Part shown: positions 19,506 through 26,643 of the stretch, piece by piece
Layout: the number at the start of each line of letters is the position of its first letter
Position numbering within the stretch: position 1 is the stretch's first letter
Source of the DNA: Cloacibacterium rupense
GTDB lineage: Bacteria > Bacteroidota > Bacteroidia > Flavobacteriales > Weeksellaceae
DNA length: 64,000 bases
Direction of reading: 5' to 3'
Assembly: GCF_014645495.1 (NCBI RefSeq)
Contig: NZ_BMLV01000001.1
Location: 748,410-812,409 of the forward strand
Made by a program: the position numbers and the translations under genes
Notes under the pieces: model-generated
Told to the model about the DNA's origin: nothing
Seen by the model: the letters and a program-made list of their open reading frames with translations, nothing else
The model's database searches: none

Positions 19506-21206
19506 TTAGTAAACATCTTTCAGAAATCTGCCTTGGTTTTCTAATTCTTCTACTACTGTTTTTGCTTGTTCTACAGAAATATTTCGTTGGGTAGAAATTA
19601 CTTCTACAATCGTGTTTTCCACATCTTTGCTCATAGGTTCTTTTTGTCCGCACAAGTAGATGTAAGCTCCATTTTCAATCCAAGAATTAAATTCTCTTGC
19701 ATTTTCTTTAATTCTATCTTGTACATAGATTTTTTTTTCTTGGTCACGTGAAAAAGCAGTACTCAATTTGGTTAAAACCCCTGTACTCAACCATTCCTGA
19801 ATTTCGGTTTGGTAATAAAAATCAAGCGTAAAGTGCTGTTCACCAAAGAACAACCAATTTTTACCTTCTGCTCCGTTGGCATCTCTTCCTGCTAAAAAGC
19901 TTCTGAAAGGCGCAATTCCCGTTCCTGGACCAATTAAAATAATGTCTTTGTCATCTTCTGGCAATCTGAAATTTTCGTTTTTATGAATGTAAAATTCAAA
20001 TTCTTGATTTAGAGGAAAATCTGCAAAATATTGTGAAGCAAAACCAGTTTTTTTCTCGTCATTTGCATTAAATTTATTAAGGTTTACCGTTAAATGAACT
20101 TCGCCATCGTGTGCTTCAGAAGAAGATGAAATAGAATACAATCTAGGCGCAACAGGCAACAAAATTTCTAGAATTTTTTGGAATGAATTTGATTCTAATT
20201 TTGGAGTTTTAATGCTTTTTAAAACATCTATCAAATCTGCTTTTTCCCAAATGTTTTCAAATGGTAAAACTTCTGATATTAAATCTAAAGAACGCTTGCT
20301 TAATCCTTTAATATTTCTAAGTTCTAACCAATCAAAAACTGTTTTTGTTTCATTTTTAATGGCAATTTCATCATTACTTTTTGCATCGAAATAATTGATA
20401 ATGAAATCAATATCTTCTTTAGAATTTTTAGGAATAATTCCGAGCGCATCACCAGGTTGGTACGCAATTTCATCATCTGAAATAATTTCTAAATGATAGG
20501 TTTCTTTGTTAGAACCTGTATCATTCAGCACAATTTTATGTTTGATTATGCCTTTGTAATTCTTTTTATGAGGAATAATCTGAACAGAATGAGCAACCTT
20601 AGTTTCACTTTTAACTCCAGAAAACAAATTCTGTAAATCTTTTTGCCAAGCTTCTACCAAAGGATTGAAATCTACATCTGCTTTTACCAAAGGCAATAAT
20701 CTTTTAGCTCCTTTTTCTTCCAAAACCTCATCTAGAAGTCTTCCTGCTTCGCAGAAAAGAGGGTAAGAACTATCTCCCAAACCAAAAACAGCGTAAGAAA
20801 GTTGATTAAGATTTACATTAGAAGATTTCAGTTTTTCATAAAAATCTTTGGCATTCAGAGGAAGTTCGCCTTCGCCTTGGGTGCTGATGATGAAAAGAAT
20901 TAAAGTTTCTTTTTCTAGTTTTTTTACATCAAACTGAAAAATATCTACAGATTTTGCATTGATTTTTTCCTTTTTGAAATTAGCCTGAAGTTTTGAAGCT
21001 ACTTTTTTGGCATTTCCTGTTTCCGTTCCATAAACGATGAGTGGTTTTACATTGATTAAAGGAACAGAAGTATTTTCTATTTTAAGATTTCCTTCGCTAG
21101 ATTTTGCAATGTAACCCGCCAAAAATCCTTTAGAATAGATTAATTCTTCGTAAGTGGCGTTAGAAACCAATTGTTGCAATAGGTTTTGTTTAGTATCAGA
21201 TAGCAT
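19506..21206 (-). CDS. cysJ: Sulfite reductase flavoprotein subunit
   Basis: NADPH-dependent diflavin reductase (566 aa) that feeds electrons to CysI. The start ATG at 21206 (MLSDTKQNLLQQL) overlaps the end of cobA by 11 nt. A longer frame to 21272 would overlap cobA further and adds no recognisable sequence. A flavodoxin domain (about 50-190) has VYGTETGNAKKVA and STQGEGELPLNAKDFYEKL. The FAD domain has PRLYSISSSSEAH, and the NADPH domain has IGPGTGIAPFRSFLAGR and YLCGQKEPMSKDVE. All cofactor motifs look intact. Translational coupling with cobA ties siroheme methyltransfer to sulfite reduction. Confidence 0.92.
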   Translation of the reverse strand: MLSDTKQNLLQQLVSNATYEELIYSKGFLAGYIAKSSEGNLKIENTSVPLINVKPLIVYGTETGNAKKVASKLQANFKKEKINAKSVDIFQFDVKKLEKETLILFIISTQGEGELPLNAKDFYEKLKSSNVNLNQLSYAVFGLGDSSYPLFCEAGRLLDEVLEEKGAKRLLPLVKADVDFNPLVEAWQKDLQNLFSGVKSETKVAHSVQIIPHKKNYKGIIKHKIVLNDTGSNKETYHLEIISDDEIAYQPGDALGIIPKNSKEDIDFIINYFDAKSNDEIAIKNETKTVFDWLELRNIKGLSKRSLDLISEVLPFENIWEKADLIDVLKSIKTPKLESNSFQKILEILLPVAPRLYSISSSSEAHDGEVHLTVNLNKFNANDEKKTGFASQYFADFPLNQEFEFYIHKNENFRLPEDDKDIILIGPGTGIAPFRSFLAGRDANGAEGKNWLFFGEQHFTLDFYYQTEIQEWLSTGVLTKLSTAFSRDQEKKIYVQDRIKENAREFNSWIENGAYIYLCGQKEPMSKDVENTIVEVISTQRNISVEQAKTVVEELENQGRFLKDVY

Positions 21207-22017
21207 TTTGATAGTTTGTTTTGTGATTATCGAAATAAGAGTTTCCAGATTTTTTTTCCTCGAACCAAGCAAATTGATGATGCAAGTTCACCACATTTCC
21301 GATGATGATAAGCGTAGGAACGTATTCAAATTCTGGTAGAGATTGAGATTTAATTTCCTCGAAAGAGAAAACCTGCGTTTTTTGTTCTGGAGTGGTCGCT
21401 TGTTGAACCACCGCAATCGATTTTGAGCCTTCAATCCCAAATTCAATCAATTTTTGAGTGATATTTTCTAGTTTTTGTCCGCTCATATAAAACACCAAGG
21501 TATCTTCTGTAGTTGCCCAATCTTGCCACTGATGAAGGGTTACAAATTTGAAATCATACAGCGTAAGAAACCTCACTCCTCTAGAATATTCTCTGGCAGT
21601 AAGCGGAATACCTGTGTAAGCCGCAGCGCCAAAAGCAGCAGAAACTCCGGGAATAATTTCGTAGGAAATTTGGTGTTCTTTTAAAATTTGAAGTTCATCC
21701 AAAATATTTGAAAAAAGGCTGGCATCGCCACCTTTTAGGCGAAGCACCAATTTCCCTTGTTTGGCAAAATGCACCATCAAATTGTTGATGTCTTTTTGGG
21801 GAGTCCAAATTCCTTTAGAACATTGCTTGCCAACGTACACAATTTCTGCTTTTTCGGAAGCGTATTCTTCTATCAACTCTGGCGAAACCAATCTGTCGGT
21901 AAGAATGACTTCCGCTTTTTGAAGGTACTTTAAAGCCTTCAAACTGATAAGTTCTGGATCGCCTGGTCCTGCACCTGCCAAAACCACTTTTCCTGTATTT
22001 TGAATTAAACTTTTCAT
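21196..22017 (-). CDS. cobA: Uroporphyrinogen-III C-methyltransferase
   Basis: S-adenosylmethionine-dependent methylase (273 aa) that converts uroporphyrinogen III to precorrin-2, the first step to siroheme. SAM-binding GAGPGDPELISLKALKYL opens the protein (residues 15-33). LRLKGGDASLFSN near 93 and EIIPGVSAAFGAAAYTGIPLT near 120 are family blocks. It lacks the CysG N-terminal domain, which is instead supplied by the fusion protein at 12806-14338. It overlaps cysJ by 11 nt. Other SUMT relatives (cobalamin pathway) are less likely given the sulfate-reduction neighbours. Confidence 0.93.
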   Translation of the reverse strand: MKSLIQNTGKVVLAGAGPGDPELISLKALKYLQKAEVILTDRLVSPELIEEYASEKAEIVYVGKQCSKGIWTPQKDINNLMVHFAKQGKLVLRLKGGDASLFSNILDELQILKEHQISYEIIPGVSAAFGAAAYTGIPLTAREYSRGVRFLTLYDFKFVTLHQWQDWATTEDTLVFYMSGQKLENITQKLIEFGIEGSKSIAVVQQATTPEQKTQVFSFEEIKSQSLPEFEYVPTLIIIGNVVNLHHQFAWFEEKKSGNSYFDNHKTNYQNAI

Positions 22018-22147
22018 AAATTTTGTATAAATTTTTGCATAAAATCTCCTCCGCCTTATCGAAAACGATATGGTAAAAACTTGATTATCTGTAAGTTAAA
22101 GATTAATTAAAAAGTCTGCTAACTCTATTTTTTAGTCTAATCTTTTC

Positions 22148-22245
22148 GCAGCCCGACCTGAGTGGAGCTCTCCCGAAAAAATATTTTTTTTAAATTTTAA
22201 AAAATATTTTTTCGGGAAGCGGGAACGGAGGGCGGAATAGCTGCC
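22148..22245. repeat. Long palindromic intergenic element, possibly REP-like
   Basis: Between cysK and cobA. The core is a perfect 18-bp inverted repeat, CCCGAAAAAATATTTTTT (22172-22189) with its complement at 22199-22216, and a 9-nt loop. Conserved-looking flanks are GCAGCCCGACCTGAGTGGAG on the left and GGGAACGGAGGGCGG on the right, and outer GCAGC/GCTGC can also pair. Its GC-rich flanks stand out from the AT-rich spacer. I recall similar hairpins dispersed in flavobacterial genomes. Only this copy is present in the window. Confidence 0.7.
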
Positions 22246-22284
22246 CAAAAAATCATAAATTACTAGCTAACAGACTTTTAAGAA

Positions 22285-23193
22285 TTAGAACAATCCTTCG
22301 ATGGAAAGATAACGTTCTCCTGTATCGTAATTGAAAGTTAGAATCTGAGCGTCATCTGGTAAAGTCTCTGCTTTTTTGGCAACCGCTGCTAAAGAAGCAC
22401 CTGTGGAAATCCCTACTAAAATCCCTTCTTTTTTGGCAATTTCTCTGGCATATTCGAAAGCCTCGTCTTTGCTCACTTGAATAACTTCGTCTATTAAATC
22501 TGAGCGATAAACATCTGGTACAAAACCTGCTCCAATCCCTTGAATTGGATGCGGTCCGGGCGCACCTCCGCTTAAAACAGGAGATAATTCTGGTTCTACG
22601 GCAATCACTTTAAGATTTGGGAATTTTTCTTTCAAAACAGCAGCAACCCCTGTAATGTGGCCACCAGTCCCAACTCCTGTGATAATATAATCTAATCCGT
22701 CTGGAAAATCTGCCAAAATCTCTTGAGCGGTAGTTCTTTTGTGAACTTCTACATTAGCTTGATTTGCAAATTGTGATGGCGACCAAGCATTTGGTGTATT
22801 GGCAACCAATTCTGCGGCTCTTTCTATAGCGCCTTTCATTCCTTTTTCACGTGGGGTAAGGTCGAATTCTGCACCATAAATTTCCATTAATTTTCTACGC
22901 TCTACACTCATAGATTCTGGCATTACCAAAATTACTTTGTAACCTTTAACCGCAGCTACTAAAGCCAAGCCGATACCTGTGTTACCCGAAGTTGGTTCTA
23001 TGATTACACTATCTGAGTTTAAAAGTCCTTTAGCTTCTGCATCTTCTATCATTGCCAATGCAATACGGTCTTTGATGCTGTTACCTGGATTGGTTCTTTC
23101 TAATTTGATGAAAACATTTTTATTGCCGTATAATTTGTTGATTTTAACGACTGGAGTGTTTCCGATGGTTTCTAAAATGTTACTTGCTTTCAT
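22285..23193 (-). CDS. cysK: Cysteine synthase (O-acetylserine sulfhydrylase)
   Basis: PLP enzyme (302 aa) that combines O-acetylserine and sulfide to cysteine, the last step of the pathway encoded here. The PLP lysine is in [17 protein letters not shown]-type sequence near residue 40 (K in SIKDR). The substrate loop [12 protein letters not shown] is near 66, and the phosphate-binding [10 protein letters not shown] near 174. The lack of a C-terminal CBS extension excludes cystathionine beta-synthase. It follows cysN by 109 nt. A TACCAAAA motif lies in that gap (23210-23230). A separate promoter is not clear. CysK versus CysM type was not resolved. Confidence 0.92.
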
Positions 23194-23302
23194 ATTTTTT
23201 ATTTTTCTATTTTTTGGTACTAAAAAATCTTTACATAAAGCTTAGCTCTATGCTATTATAAATTGTAATAATGTATCTAATTCTAAGTTTTTCTTAAATT
23301 GT

Positions 23303-24535
23303 TTAAAGGAACATTAATGCTCCTACGGTGTTGAAGCTGGTTTCGTCTATTAAAATGGCGCTTCCTGATTTTGGATTTTTCTCGAAAGTGTCATAAAATA
23401 ATGGTTGACTGGTTTTTAATGTAACTTGTGCAATATCATTGAGTTGAACTGCATCTCCATCCGTAAATTGCCATTGATTAACGTTCCATTTTCTATTAAT
23501 TTGTTGCACTTTTACTCTCACATTTTTGAATCTGTGTTGTAATAAATACGTTTTACCAACTTGTAACGAATTGTTATCTAACCAAGAAATCCAAGTGTTG
23601 ATTTGGTTGTCTTCTTTTGGCAATTGATTGCTGAGAACTACAGTGTCTCCACGGCTGATGTCTATATCATTTTCGAAATGTAACACTACATTGTCACCTG
23701 CTATTACTTCCGAAACATCTTTTAAATCTTTTTCTATTTTCACTAAAGTTGTTTCTATTTTAGCAGGCAAAATGGTTACTTTGTCTCCAACTTTGTAGCT
23801 TCCGCTCAAGATTTGCCCTGCATAACCTCTGTAATCGTGGTTGTCTTCATCTTTTGGCCTGATTACCCATTGCACTTGGAATCTTGCTTCTAAATCTTCC
23901 GTTCCGTCTAATTCTACAGTTTCTAAAGTTTGAAGAATAGATTTCCCGTTGTACCAAGGTGTATTTTCAGAAGTGGTAACTACGTTATCTCCTACCAATG
24001 CACTTACCGGAATGTAGATAATTTCGTTGTAATTCAATTCAGATTTTATGGCTTCGAAATCATTTTTTATTTGGTTAAAAACTTCTTCGGAATAGTTTAA
24101 TAAATCTATTTTATTAATGGCGATTATTGCTTTTTTAATTCCCATTAAAGAGCCTACACTTGCGTGTCTTTTGGTTTGGTCTGTAATTCCGTTTCGGGCA
24201 TCAACTAGAACAATGATTAAATCTGAGTTGGAAGCACCAGTAATCATATTTCTAGTGTATTGTTCGTGACCAGGTGCATCTGCAATGATAAATTTTCTTT
24301 TAGAAGTAGAGAAATATTTGTACGCAACATCTATTGTAATTCCTTGTTCACGCTCTGCACGAAGGCCGTCTGTAATTAAAGATAAATCTATATCTACACC
24401 TTCTTGCTTGGTTTGTTTTTGTAAAACACCCAATTGGTCTGTATGTATGCTGTCAGAATCATAGAGAAGTCTTCCGATTAAGGTACTTTTGCCATCATCT
24501 ACGTTTCCTGCGGTTATAAATCTTAATGTATTCAT
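23303..24535 (-). CDS. cysN: Sulfate adenylyltransferase subunit 1 (GTPase)
   Basis: GTP-hydrolysing regulatory subunit (410 aa) of ATP sulfurylase, which with CysD makes APS from sulfate and ATP. EF-Tu-like motifs: GNVDDGKSTLIGRLL (residues 10-24), the DAPGHEQY switch region near 90, and NKID near 145. Beta-barrel domains follow. There is no C-terminal APS kinase (CysC) domain, unlike the bifunctional NodQ/CysNC form. That agrees with the APS-type CysH encoded just upstream. A 73-nt gap with short GAGTTTCG repeats separates it from cysD. Confidence 0.93.
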   Translation of the reverse strand: MNTLRFITAGNVDDGKSTLIGRLLYDSDSIHTDQLGVLQKQTKQEGVDIDLSLITDGLRAEREQGITIDVAYKYFSTSKRKFIIADAPGHEQYTRNMITGASNSDLIIVLVDARNGITDQTKRHASVGSLMGIKKAIIAINKIDLLNYSEEVFNQIKNDFEAIKSELNYNEIIYIPVSALVGDNVVTTSENTPWYNGKSILQTLETVELDGTEDLEARFQVQWVIRPKDEDNHDYRGYAGQILSGSYKVGDKVTILPAKIETTLVKIEKDLKDVSEVIAGDNVVLHFENDIDISRGDTVVLSNQLPKEDNQINTWISWLDNNSLQVGKTYLLQHRFKNVRVKVQQINRKWNVNQWQFTDGDAVQLNDIAQVTLKTSQPLFYDTFEKNPKSGSAILIDETSFNTVGALMFL

Positions 24536-24537
24536 TT

Positions 24538-24580
24538 TTTTATGAGTTTCGAGTTTCGTGATACGAGTTTCGACTTAATT
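24538..24580. repeat. Short GAGTTTCG repeats between cysD and cysN
   Basis: GAGTTTCGAGTTTCG, then CGAGTTTCG again after TGATA, in a 73-nt spacer. Low complexity. No terminator or start signal was seen in it. Confidence 0.5.
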
Positions 24581-24608
24581 ATTAATTTAAAATTTTGAAT
24601 ATTTGATA

Positions 24609-25514
24609 TTAAAAGTACCCTTGTTTTTTACGGTCTTCCATTGCAGCTTCCGAAAGTTGATCATCTAATCTTGTTTGTCCTCTTTCGCTAATTCTGGTTT
24701 GGATAATATCTTCAATAATGTCATCAATTGTAGAAGCTTCAGAAGGCACTGCTGCGGTACAAGTCATATCTCCAACGGTTCTGTATCTTACTTTTTCAAT
24801 CACCACTTCGTCACCTTCTTGAGGTTGAATAAACGCCGAAGTTGCCACTAATTTATCTTGAAACTTAATACATTCTCTATTGTGAGAGAAATACAAATTC
24901 GGCAATTCTATATTGTATTTTTTGATGTAATTCCAGATGTCTAACTCCGTCCAATTGCTAATTGGGAAGACTCTTACATTATGACCTTTTTGTACTTTTC
25001 CGTTAAGGATATTCCACAGTTCGGGTCTTTGAAGTTTTGGGTCCCAAGCTCCGAAATCGTCTCTTACAGAGAAAATTCTTTCTTTGGCTCTGGCTTTTTC
25101 TTCGTCTCTTCTTGCGCCGCCAATACAAGCGTCAAATTCATTTTCTTCGATGGTGTCTAAAAGAGTGTAAGTTTGAAGAGAATTTCTAGAAGGGAATCTA
25201 CCGCCAGTTTCTTTTAAATTATATTTTTTGATGCTGTCTTCTACATAACCCACTACCAATTTTTCTCCAATTTTTTCTACCAATTCATCTCTGAATTCTA
25301 AAGCTTCAGGGAAATTATGACCTGTGTCTATATGCACCAAAGGAAAAGGAAATTTACCTGGGCGAAACGCCTTCAACGCTAAATGTACCAACACGATGGA
25401 ATCTTTACCTCCCGAGAAAAGCAAAGCTGGCTTTTCGAACTGCGCCGCTGTTTCTCTTAAAATATAAATTGCTTCGTTTTCTAATTGCTCTAAATAATCT
25501 ACTGTATTGCTCAT
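24609..25514 (-). CDS. cysD: Sulfate adenylyltransferase subunit 2
   Basis: Catalytic subunit (301 aa) of ATP sulfurylase, of the PP-loop ATP pyrophosphatase fold. The ATG at 25514 gives MSNTVDYLEQLENEAIYIL, the usual flavobacterial opening. An ATG at 25532 abuts the cysH stop and would add six residues (MQKKIK), so it is a weaker choice. The PP-loop is LLFSGGKDSIV near residue 35. ARRDEEKARAKERIFS near 140 is a CysD signature. It is co-transcribed with cysH (18-nt gap) and cysN. Confidence 0.93.
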   Translation of the reverse strand: MSNTVDYLEQLENEAIYILRETAAQFEKPALLFSGGKDSIVLVHLALKAFRPGKFPFPLVHIDTGHNFPEALEFRDELVEKIGEKLVVGYVEDSIKKYNLKETGGRFPSRNSLQTYTLLDTIEENEFDACIGGARRDEEKARAKERIFSVRDDFGAWDPKLQRPELWNILNGKVQKGHNVRVFPISNWTELDIWNYIKKYNIELPNLYFSHNRECIKFQDKLVATSAFIQPQEGDEVVIEKVRYRTVGDMTCTAAVPSEASTIDDIIEDIIQTRISERGQTRLDDQLSEAAMEDRKKQGYF

Positions 25515-25532
25515 TTTAATTTTTTTCTGCAT

Positions 25533-26225
25533 TTATTGATGTAAACCACATTCTTTTTTAGATTGATCTTCCCACCACCATCTTCCAGCTCGGAAATCTT
25601 CGCCTTCTTTTACCGCTCTAGTGCAAGGTGCACAACCAATACTTATGAAACCTTTGTGATGAAGCGTATTGTAAGGAACTCCTTTTTGTTGTAAGTATGC
25701 TACCACGTCATCGGTTGACCAGTTCATCAAAGGATTGAATTTGTATAACTGATGCGCTTCATCCCATTCTACCAATTTCATTGTTTGTCTATTAGGCGAT
25801 TGCTCTGCTCTAAGTCCTGTAATCCATACATTTGCACCTTGTAAAGCTCTATTTAATGGTTGAACTTTTCTGATATTACAACATTCTTTTCTAAGTTCTA
25901 CACTGTTATAAAAACCATTAATTCCGTTGTCTGAAACATATTTTTCTATGTTTGAAGCTTCTGGATAAAAAGGTTTTATTTTGTTTCCAAATTTTAGATT
26001 GGTTTTATCCCAAACTTCATAAGTTTCTGGGAAAAGTCTGCCAGTATCTAGTGTAAAAACCTCTATATTTTCTAATTGATTACTAAAAATTTCGTTGGTA
26101 ATCACTTGATCTTCTATTCCGAAACTGGTAGAAAAAACAATTTTCCCTTTTAATTGTTCATTCAAGATTTTTAAATTTTCCTGAACTGAATTGTTCTCAT
26201 TGAGTAATTTTAATACTTCTTCCAT
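25533..26225 (-). CDS. cysH: Adenylylsulfate (APS) reductase, CysH family
   Basis: Reduces activated sulfate to sulfite in the cytoplasm using thioredoxin (230 aa). The paired-cysteine motifs for a [4Fe-4S] cluster are present, ECCNIRKVQPL near residue 130 and GCAPCTRAVKEGED near 195. The catalytic cysteine is at the C-terminus in KKECGLH. The CC...CxxC pattern marks the APS-reducing type rather than the PAPS-only enterobacterial type, which fits the absence of cysC. The PP-loop region reads VFSTSFGIEDQV near residue 30. First gene of the operon, it begins 13 nt after an attenuator terminator, so its expression is set by the leader at 26238-26643. Confidence 0.93.
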   Translation of the reverse strand: MEEVLKLLNENNSVQENLKILNEQLKGKIVFSTSFGIEDQVITNEIFSNQLENIEVFTLDTGRLFPETYEVWDKTNLKFGNKIKPFYPEASNIEKYVSDNGINGFYNSVELRKECCNIRKVQPLNRALQGANVWITGLRAEQSPNRQTMKLVEWDEAHQLYKFNPLMNWSTDDVVAYLQQKGVPYNTLHHKGFISIGCAPCTRAVKEGEDFRAGRWWWEDQSKKECGLHQ

Positions 26226-26237
26226 ACTATTTTTTCA

Positions 26238-26268
26238 AAAAAAATGACCTCTTGAAACCAAGAAGCCA
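26238..26268 (-). terminator. Attenuator terminator B, directly before cysH
   Basis: In the transcript GGCUUCUUG (26268-26260) pairs with CAAGAGGUC (26255-26247) over 9 positions including two G-U pairs, with a GUUU loop. It is followed by A and eight U (26238-26245), 13 nt before the cysH ATG. No gene ends here, so it acts as an attenuator. Confidence 0.8.
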
Positions 26269-26298
26269 ATATTTATTTATAATCACAATAATTCTATA

Positions 26299-26412
26299 CT
26301 ATAGACCATAAGAAATAGGAGCTTCCAAAGAAACTTTACAACAACAAACCATCATACACATTGCTGTGAAGCTGTATTTTGGGTTATTAAAAGTAAAATC
26401 TTTTGTATTCAT
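26299..26412 (-). CDS. Leader peptide B, Cys-rich (37 aa), second attenuator module
   Basis: Short ORF from ATG 26412 to TAG 26299. It opens MNTKDFTFNNPKYSF and contains TAMCMMVCCCKVS, with Cys at positions 19, 23, 24 and 25. It has no signal peptide or known domain. Four RNA strands can be drawn: AGCUUC (26373-26368, codons 14-15) can pair with GAAGCU (26325-26320, codons 30-31), and GGAAGCUCCUAUUU (26326-26313) can pair at 12 of 14 positions with AAAUAUUGGCUUCU (26275-26262), which includes the 5' arm of terminator B. The second strand starts 11 nt after the last Cys codon. Expected role: ribosome stalling at Cys codons when charged tRNA-Cys is low allows read-through into cysH. Ends 73 nt before cysH. 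Confidence 0.8.
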   Translation of the reverse strand: MNTKDFTFNNPKYSFTAMCMMVCCCKVSLEAPISYGL

Positions 26413-26464
26413 TTCGTTTCTAATTTCTATTTTCTTAATTTCTGTGTAAAATTACTAATTTTTA

Positions 26465-26505
26465 AAACAAAAAAGACTCCTTAATCATAAAATTAAGGAG
26501 TCTTT
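26465..26505 (-). terminator. Attenuator terminator A
   Basis: A perfect 14-bp stem (26472-26485 with 26492-26505) and 6-nt loop, giving AAAGACUCCUUAAU with its complement, then UUUUUUGUUUU in the minus-strand transcript. It lies between leader ORF A and leader ORF B and ends no long gene. Confidence 0.88.
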
Positions 26506-26540
26506 CTTGAAAATATTTTTTGTTAAATCTATATCAATAT

Positions 26541-26553
26541 AAGAAATTCTCCT
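26541..26553 (-). promoter_or_regulatory. Antiterminator strand of module A
   Basis: AGGAGAAUUUCUU begins 12 nt after the last Cys codon of leader A. It can pair with AAGAAAGACUCCU (26508-26496) at 11 of 13 positions (a 2x2 A-A/A-G mismatch in the middle), which destroys terminator A. CCUCU (26565-26561) can instead pair with AGAGG (26555-26551) when no ribosome is stalled. Confidence 0.75.
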
Positions 26554-26604
26554 CTAGTTAAGAGGACAACAGCACATTGCGATATTTGATATAATTTGTT
26601 TCAT
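26554..26604 (-). CDS. Leader peptide A, MKQIISNIAMCCCPLN (16 aa), first attenuator module
   Basis: Short ORF from ATG 26604 to TAG 26554, first in the cysH-operon transcript. Codons 11-13 are TGC TGT TGT. The predicted -7 box ends at 26614, so the mRNA would begin only about 3-7 nt before the ATG, making the ORF close to leaderless. The Cys codons are followed by a small hairpin, an antiterminator strand and a strong terminator in the order of a trp-type attenuator. Peptide function is expected to be regulatory only, through stalling when Cys-tRNA is scarce. Found only by reading short frames, as it is far below usual gene-calling limits. Confidence 0.82.
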   Translation of the reverse strand: MKQIISNIAMCCCPLN

Positions 26605-26613
26605 TTTGTGTTG

Positions 26614-26643
26614 CAAATATATAATTAATTTTAAACAAAACAA
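26614..26643 (-). promoter_or_regulatory. Promoter of the cysH operon
   Basis: Minus-strand TTG (26641-26643), exactly 19 nt, then TATATTTG (26614-26621), a good Bacteroidetes -33/-7 pair. Upstream on the plus strand ATTACCAAAAGTAT (26681-26694) resembles the motif at the Rrf2 gene start. Confidence 0.72.

Follow-up and report, generated by a model that had tools for sequence, protein, structure and literature searches.

Module B of the window (the whole stretch of 64,000 nucleotides that was analysed) is, in our reading, the downstream member of a pair of transcription attenuators in series, both ribosome-mediated (leader-peptide), which would sense charged tRNA-Cys. We give this reading, predicted from the sequence, a probability of about 0.85. 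We based it on the leaders and their Cys codons, the arms, the terminators, the content of the operon, a promoter motif present only before leader A, and the conservation of matched arms. The claim of the earlier sequence-only reading, that modules A and B have one geometry and that B is a Cys leader, was upheld. Ribosome-mediated attenuation is classical; for the tandem cysteine-leader form described here we found no earlier description in the open literature.

Organization of the leader region

All features described below lie on the minus strand, in the order promoter box, leader A, terminator A, leader B, terminator B and cysH-D-N-K-cobA-J. The promoter-like element is a Bacteroidota -7 box, TATATTTG (TAnnTTTG; 26614-26621), and the same motif is present upstream of the first leaders of relatives. 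Module A as a whole (26604-26469) extends from leader A, MKQIISNIAMCCCPLN (26554-26604, by translation), through terminator A. Folding placed a 1:2 hairpin CCUCU/AGAGG (26551-26565) adjoining its Cys codons. Antiterminator arm 2 lies in the GAGGAGAAUUUCUU region (26541-26554), and its pairing was significant in comparison with shuffles (p = 0.002). The terminator scan identified arm 3 together with a strong terminator hairpin and U tract (about 26469-26508).

Leader B is MNTKDFTFNNPKYSFTAMCMMVCCCKVSLEAPISYGL, a peptide of 37 aa (26299-26412). Translation of 26412-26299 agreed with the 37-codon ORF described before, with Cys at codon 19 (26358-26356) and at codons 23, 24 and 25 (26346-26338). 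Arm 2, GGAAGCUCCUAUUU (26313-26326), and arm 3, AAAUAUUGGCUUCU, were identified by pairing and compared with shuffles; the reported pairing at 12 of 14 positions was present and its two mismatches were both C-U, but arm 3 lies at 26274-26261 and not, as had been given, at 26275-26262. The terminator scan also found the proposed hairpin GGCUUCUUG/CAAGAGGUC with its U tract, at 26268-26237, and we confirmed that antiterminator and terminator of module B are mutually exclusive. The minimum free energy (MFE) structure of the B leader includes the antiterminator (z = -3.35), and the stretch spanning both modules had a folding z of -5.18.

One element of the sequence-only reading was not confirmed. 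A long-range hairpin between AGCUUC (codons 14-15) and GAAGCU had been proposed as the structure that competes with the antiterminator. In the closest relative, L082, the first of these words is altered to AACUUC, and the hairpin is absent from the MFE structure of the leader, so we rejected it; it is also not needed. The competing hairpin of module B is more likely local, namely AGUUUC-UUUG-GAAGCU (26320-26335, -5.0 kcal/mol), directly after the Cys codons. We preferred this hairpin because module A and the relatives have theirs at the same position.

The genes downstream of both modules were annotated as cysH, phosphoadenylyl-/adenylyl-sulfate reductase (25533-26225), cysD (24609-25532), cysN (23303-24535), cysK, cysteine synthase (22285-23193), cobA, uroporphyrinogen-III C-methyltransferase of the siroheme branch (21196-22017), and a cysJ-like sulfite reductase flavoprotein (19506-21272). 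The operon therefore serves sulfate assimilation, the product of which is cysteine. Modules A and B are predicted to lie on one transcript, of which B is the second module. In 25 of 27 loci a TAnnTTTG box was present 17-35 nt upstream of the first leader; in 23 loci we looked for it in the interval that separates leader B from terminator A and found none. Since the box lies only upstream of leader A, leader B is probably reached only by polymerases that have passed terminator A.

We compared the whole window with Rfam models of cis-regulators (SAM riboswitches, T-box and others) and obtained no match apart from a tRNA. The leader peptide matched no NCBIfam family, and in the genome that carries the window the R2 search returned nothing besides the cysH leader. 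Because there is no Rfam match and the leaders do not align in sequence across lineages, annotation misses tandem leaders of this kind.

Further, we estimated what could be expected by chance. At least one Cys-run leader (up to 45 codons) in the 400 nt upstream of cysH was obtained in 1.5% of 3000 dinucleotide shuffles, and two such leaders in none of the 3000. Cys made up 14-17% of leader residues, mainly in frame. The motif TGYTGYTGY occurs 276 times in the genome and is thus common alone, so its context matters; a genome-wide scan for this motif to find other leaders was discarded for the same reason.

The proposed course of events is as follows. RNA polymerase would start upstream of leader A and would meet two terminators, first A and later B, both of which it has to pass before cysH. 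If Cys-tRNA were short, the ribosome would halt on the Cys codons and cover the RNA just downstream, which is predicted to be the normal partner of the antiterminator arm (1:2 hairpin). Arm 2, released in this way, would then capture the terminator's 5' half (2:3), and the polymerase would read on. If Cys-tRNA were plentiful, the ribosome would run over arm 2, the terminator (3:4) would form and transcription would stop. The effects of two successive gates should multiply, so that the background would be lower and the response sharper. Here we infer that the leaders are translated, that ribosomes stall and polymerase reads through, that the gates multiply, and how exactly module B of the window is closed.

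Matched arms in related loci

Homologous loci were fetched by CysH; the genomes are related, so the counts given here are not independent. We observed two modules at 23 of the relatives' cysH loci and one at three (L085, L152 and L159). All cysH leaders in these 26 related loci carry a Cys cluster that is followed by a terminator. The scan detected an intrinsic terminator between leader and first gene in all modules with the exception of module B of L086; this locus has two leaders too, but the scan overlooked its second terminator, the hairpin of which contains mismatches. We nevertheless included this module in the arm-swap test described below.

The plan of the modules is constant: a Cys cluster, a local hairpin, arm 2 and then a terminator, with complementarity between arm 2 and the 5' half of this terminator. 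The stretch that pairs best with the terminator arm begins 7-18 nt past the last Cys codon in 45 of 49 modules. The words used for arm 2 and arm 3 differ by lineage (GAGGGG/CUCCUC, CCGCAGAG/CUCUGC, GCAAGAGGC/GCCUCUUG and AAGGAGC/GCUCCUU; GGAAGCU/GGCUUC in module B of the window). In the B modules of L010, L147 and L151, read by eye, CUAUUGCC or CUAUUACC pairs with GGUAAUAG in the terminator loop.

An analysis of covariation by alignment columns was dropped for the full set of lineages, since their arms are misaligned with one another, and the arm-swap test was used instead. For 21 representative modules, pairing of arms with their own partners gave -13.05 kcal/mol, compared with -9.13 kcal/mol for swapped partners, and none of 100,000 permutations reached the native value. 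The arms thus stay matched across lineages: loss of the pairing in orthologous leaders without compensatory change, which would have spoken against the sequence-only reading, was not what we found, and the suggestion of selection on mechanism rather than on sequence agreed with arms that remain matched despite sequence turnover. Within one group, alternation of a leader A codon between ACA and GCA goes with alternation of U and C in the terminator arm. The arm CCGCAGAG is read as Ser-Ala-Glu (SAE) in most leaders and, in another frame, as Pro-Gln-Arg (PQR) in L152; being conserved as RNA while read in two frames, it points to selection there on RNA and not on the peptide. As judged from these comparisons, the predicted antiterminator arm is conserved by covariation, is exclusive with the terminator and lies just downstream of the regulatory codons.

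The pairing of the arms was significant (p < 0.05) in 38 of 49 modules, which come from related species and are not independent counts. For module B of the window it was marginal (p = 0.077), while module B of L082, a close relative, reached p = 0.015. Since the pairing of the window's module B is marginal by itself, the judgement has to rest on comparison with relatives.

Modelled switching and alternative readings

We modelled the leaders with the ribosome either stalled at the last Cys codon or positioned at the stop codon. In the first model the RNA upstream of the ribosome was ignored and the RNA was nascent, which is too generous. Under these conditions the median sequestration of the terminator arm in all 50 modules was 0.70 at the last Cys codon vs 0.08 at the stop codon. 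Shuffled segments already reached 0.41 in the stalled state, so folding of a single module is weak evidence. Equilibrium folding with the complete hairpin almost always favoured the terminator, as is expected of a kinetic switch, and is therefore not informative. In the second, stricter model, upstream RNA was allowed to pair; the A modules gave 0.69 stalled vs 0.30 at stop, and the B modules 0.72 vs 0.47.

In the stricter model module A of the window switched cleanly (0.62 stalled vs 0.07 at stop), and as modelled it is a textbook gate, closed by default and with the ribosome at the stop codon. The contrast nearly disappeared for module B of the window (0.79 stalled vs 0.74 at stop; 0.76 vs 0.64 with a 24-nt footprint), because its arm 2 lies approximately 19 nt upstream of the stop codon. 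Over the models together, stalled and completed ribosomes led to clearly opposite structures in most relatives and in module A of the window, and to weakly different ones in its module B. This module is open by default in the model, and thermodynamics alone, as modelled, does not show its closure. To close it, either a ribosome must cross arm 2 at the right time or the local hairpin AGUUUC/GAAGCU must form, which is the weakest step of the modelled scheme.

These values could mean that module A is the sole regulator and that module B of the window is degenerate or constitutive, with the antiterminator favoured in every state, and the marginal pairing of its arms points in the same direction. 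We consider this unlikely, as B modules with matched arms are kept in 23 related loci and switch on average in the stricter model, and as L082 retains the Cys codons, the arms and the terminator. In a further alternative the hairpins have no role and the leader ORFs act through Rho or through translation, as has been proposed for Actinobacteria, where polycysteine ORFs precede cys operons without terminators (PMC1262725); this is very improbable here, given that the leaders are followed by intrinsic terminators with U tracts and that arm 2 and arm 3 are conserved. We give equally little credence to the idea that the products of the leaders are small Cys-rich peptides with a function of their own, such as metal or redox binding, and that the terminators are incidental. 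The peptides are indeed Cys-rich and their ORFs are kept in relatives, but beyond Cys and Met almost nothing is common to peptides of different lineages, the RNA of the arm is retained while its reading frame differs, Cys is replaced by Met before Met genes, and a matched terminator lies downstream.

Another possibility, which we consider less likely than not, is a mixed sulfur-amino-acid sensor, in which module B (CMMVCCC) also stalls on Met and the second gate reads methionyl-tRNA too. Both cysH leaders carry Cys, and of the retention of Cys and Met codons in relatives, which had been raised as a check, the Cys part stood, with Cys in every cysH leader; Met is enriched, but it is missing from some. 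Non-start Met constitutes 7-9% of leader residues, and counts of Met in frame exceed those in the two other frames (54 vs 9 and 3 in A; 54 vs 5 and 2 in B). Several cysH B leaders, however, contain little Met or none at all, with no Met near the Cys run (ASCCCCCQ, SVCCACF), the Met of leader A is Val in a close relative of the window, and related species have Met in common by descent. Met is also needed for initiation, so that falling Met-tRNA would itself reduce leader translation. Met sensing by cysH leaders is plausible but optional.

Leaders of other sulfur genes also bear on Met sensing. A covariance model was built from one group of first modules and run on 81 Flavobacterium genomes; it gave matches in 51 of them, mostly to tandem leaders before metY (O-acetylhomoserine sulfhydrylase). 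Tandem leaders with Cys and Met codons and with terminators were also found before metX-like (named by eye from sequence), OsmC / homoserine-dehydrogenase-like, cysE and metH genes (L196-L255, metY loci included), and their share of Met increases along the pathway. Met accounted for 0.34-0.35 of leader Cys plus Met before cysH and for 0.58-0.60 before metY (p = 0.0005 and p = 0.003, for relatives that are not independent). The leaders MIFNTNTMMMAMMMMNMMMFTTPYCLKSTS, before metY in L240, and MITITLNNGMMMMHMMMCFRIVVSKS, before metH in L217 (one genome), are nearly pure Met. The metY leaders of L240, L239, L243 and L237 consist largely of Met codons (MMMxMMMM), and from these codons we predict a methionine leader-peptide attenuator. 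As leaders were absent upstream of metH in 17 other Flavobacterium genomes, Met leaders of metH come from a single genome.

It is conceivable, though we would put it at somewhat below even odds, that Flavobacteriales have a sulfur-amino-acid regulon built on tandem attenuators which are tuned gene by gene, with Cys at cysH, Cys and Met at metY and metX-like genes, and near-pure Met at metH and some metY. Gates may differ in their mixture, so that Cys-tRNA and Met-tRNA would be weighted per operon, and module B of the window (CMMVCCC) would be a mixed gate. If the gradient from Cys to Met over cysH, metY and metH holds, the specificity of a sensor could be read from leader codons alone. In the window's own genome, metY (L230) is preceded by a SAM-I riboswitch and has no leaders; a Flavo-1 RNA lies nearby.

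Known attenuators and origin of the operon

In the attenuators of trp, his, leu and ilv operons, codons for the product amino acid stand in a leader ORF, the 1:2, 2:3 and 3:4 helices exclude one another, and an intrinsic terminator is present. The cysH modules resemble them in the leader codons for the product amino acid, the exclusive helices and the intrinsic terminator. They differ in that two complete modules stand in series per operon, in Bacteroidota and in the cysteine pathway, and in that the stop codon of module B lies beyond arm 2.

In Rhodobacterales, uORFC-8-2 before cysS has two conserved Cys codons and an intrinsic terminator and is predicted to sense Cys-tRNA (PMC8632094). It is a single module in another phylum, its target is a tRNA synthetase and it forms one alignable RNA family (PMC8632094), whereas cysH leader sequences are not alignable across lineages. 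Short polycysteine ORFs before cys operons were described in mycobacteria and other Actinobacteria, where no terminators were found and Rho or translational control was proposed (PMC1262725); actinobacterial polycysteine leader ORFs are also attributed to Canestrari 2020, as cited in PMC13236596. Those are leaderless single ORFs, unlike the tandem leaders with terminators found here. The mgtCBR operon of Salmonella has two leader ORFs with attenuators in one leader mRNA, which respond to ATP and proline (PMC3641672); the arrangement of two leaders in one mRNA is alike, but here both carry Cys codons. For Flavobacterium psychrophilum, a member of the same order, signs of leader-peptide attenuation were reported upstream of operons for amino-acid biosynthesis (PMC9723704), and the main-text passages concerned mention neither cysteine leaders nor a tandem arrangement of leaders. 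The open literature, to which our search was largely confined as most subscription journals lie outside its coverage, contained no description of tandem same-amino-acid leaders, Bacteroidota Cys leaders or Met-codon leaders. Two full attenuators for one amino acid, widely kept while their sequence is rewritten, offer natural experiments on the stacking of gates, and tandem Cys leaders are also informative on the evolution of leader peptides.

The leader-bearing CysH clade comprises mostly Flavobacterium, together with the genus of the window and a second genus from the same family as the latter. The CysH tree places the window as sister to F. covae and F. davisii (support 99/98), while its genome belongs to another family, and cysH was present in only 2 of 7 genomes of the window's genus. 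From this placement and this patchy distribution we infer that the operon with its leaders (19506-26621) was probably acquired horizontally, from relatives of F. covae/davisii. The leaders of the window are unlike those of this sister group in sequence; by this comparison, leader sequence changes fast and the plan stays. No leaders were found upstream of cysH in Empedobacter, whose CysH nests within the leader-bearing clade, or in the Sphingobacteriaceae sampled.

Several loci showed other arrangements. A contig labelled as a Limnohabitans MAG (L003) carries a cysH locus like that of Flavobacterium covae and is probably misbinned. Compared with it, leader B of F. covae (L004) is frameshifted near its start and reaches a stop after six codons, which may be a sequencing slip or indicate another start codon. 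In Empedobacter and its kin (L084, L088-L093), which have no leaders, a palindrome-like CTCTATAA...CYATAGAG recurs shortly upstream of cysH. In another Flavobacterium CysH clade (L161-L188) a gene for an Rrf2-like regulator is often found upstream and Cys leaders are absent; attenuation and a protein regulator of this type may replace each other upstream of cysH. L164 and L180 have a single Cys leader (MVMCMC.CFSKEE) and a terminator before the Rrf2-type regulator gene that precedes cysH. In Flavisolibacter (L017, L018 and L048; about 2006-2500) a SAM-I riboswitch is followed by a polycysteine leader (up to CCCCCC) and then by cysH. We saw no terminator with a U tract after this leader, and the region of its Cys codons could pair with CCGUACAAC, which is conserved farther downstream.
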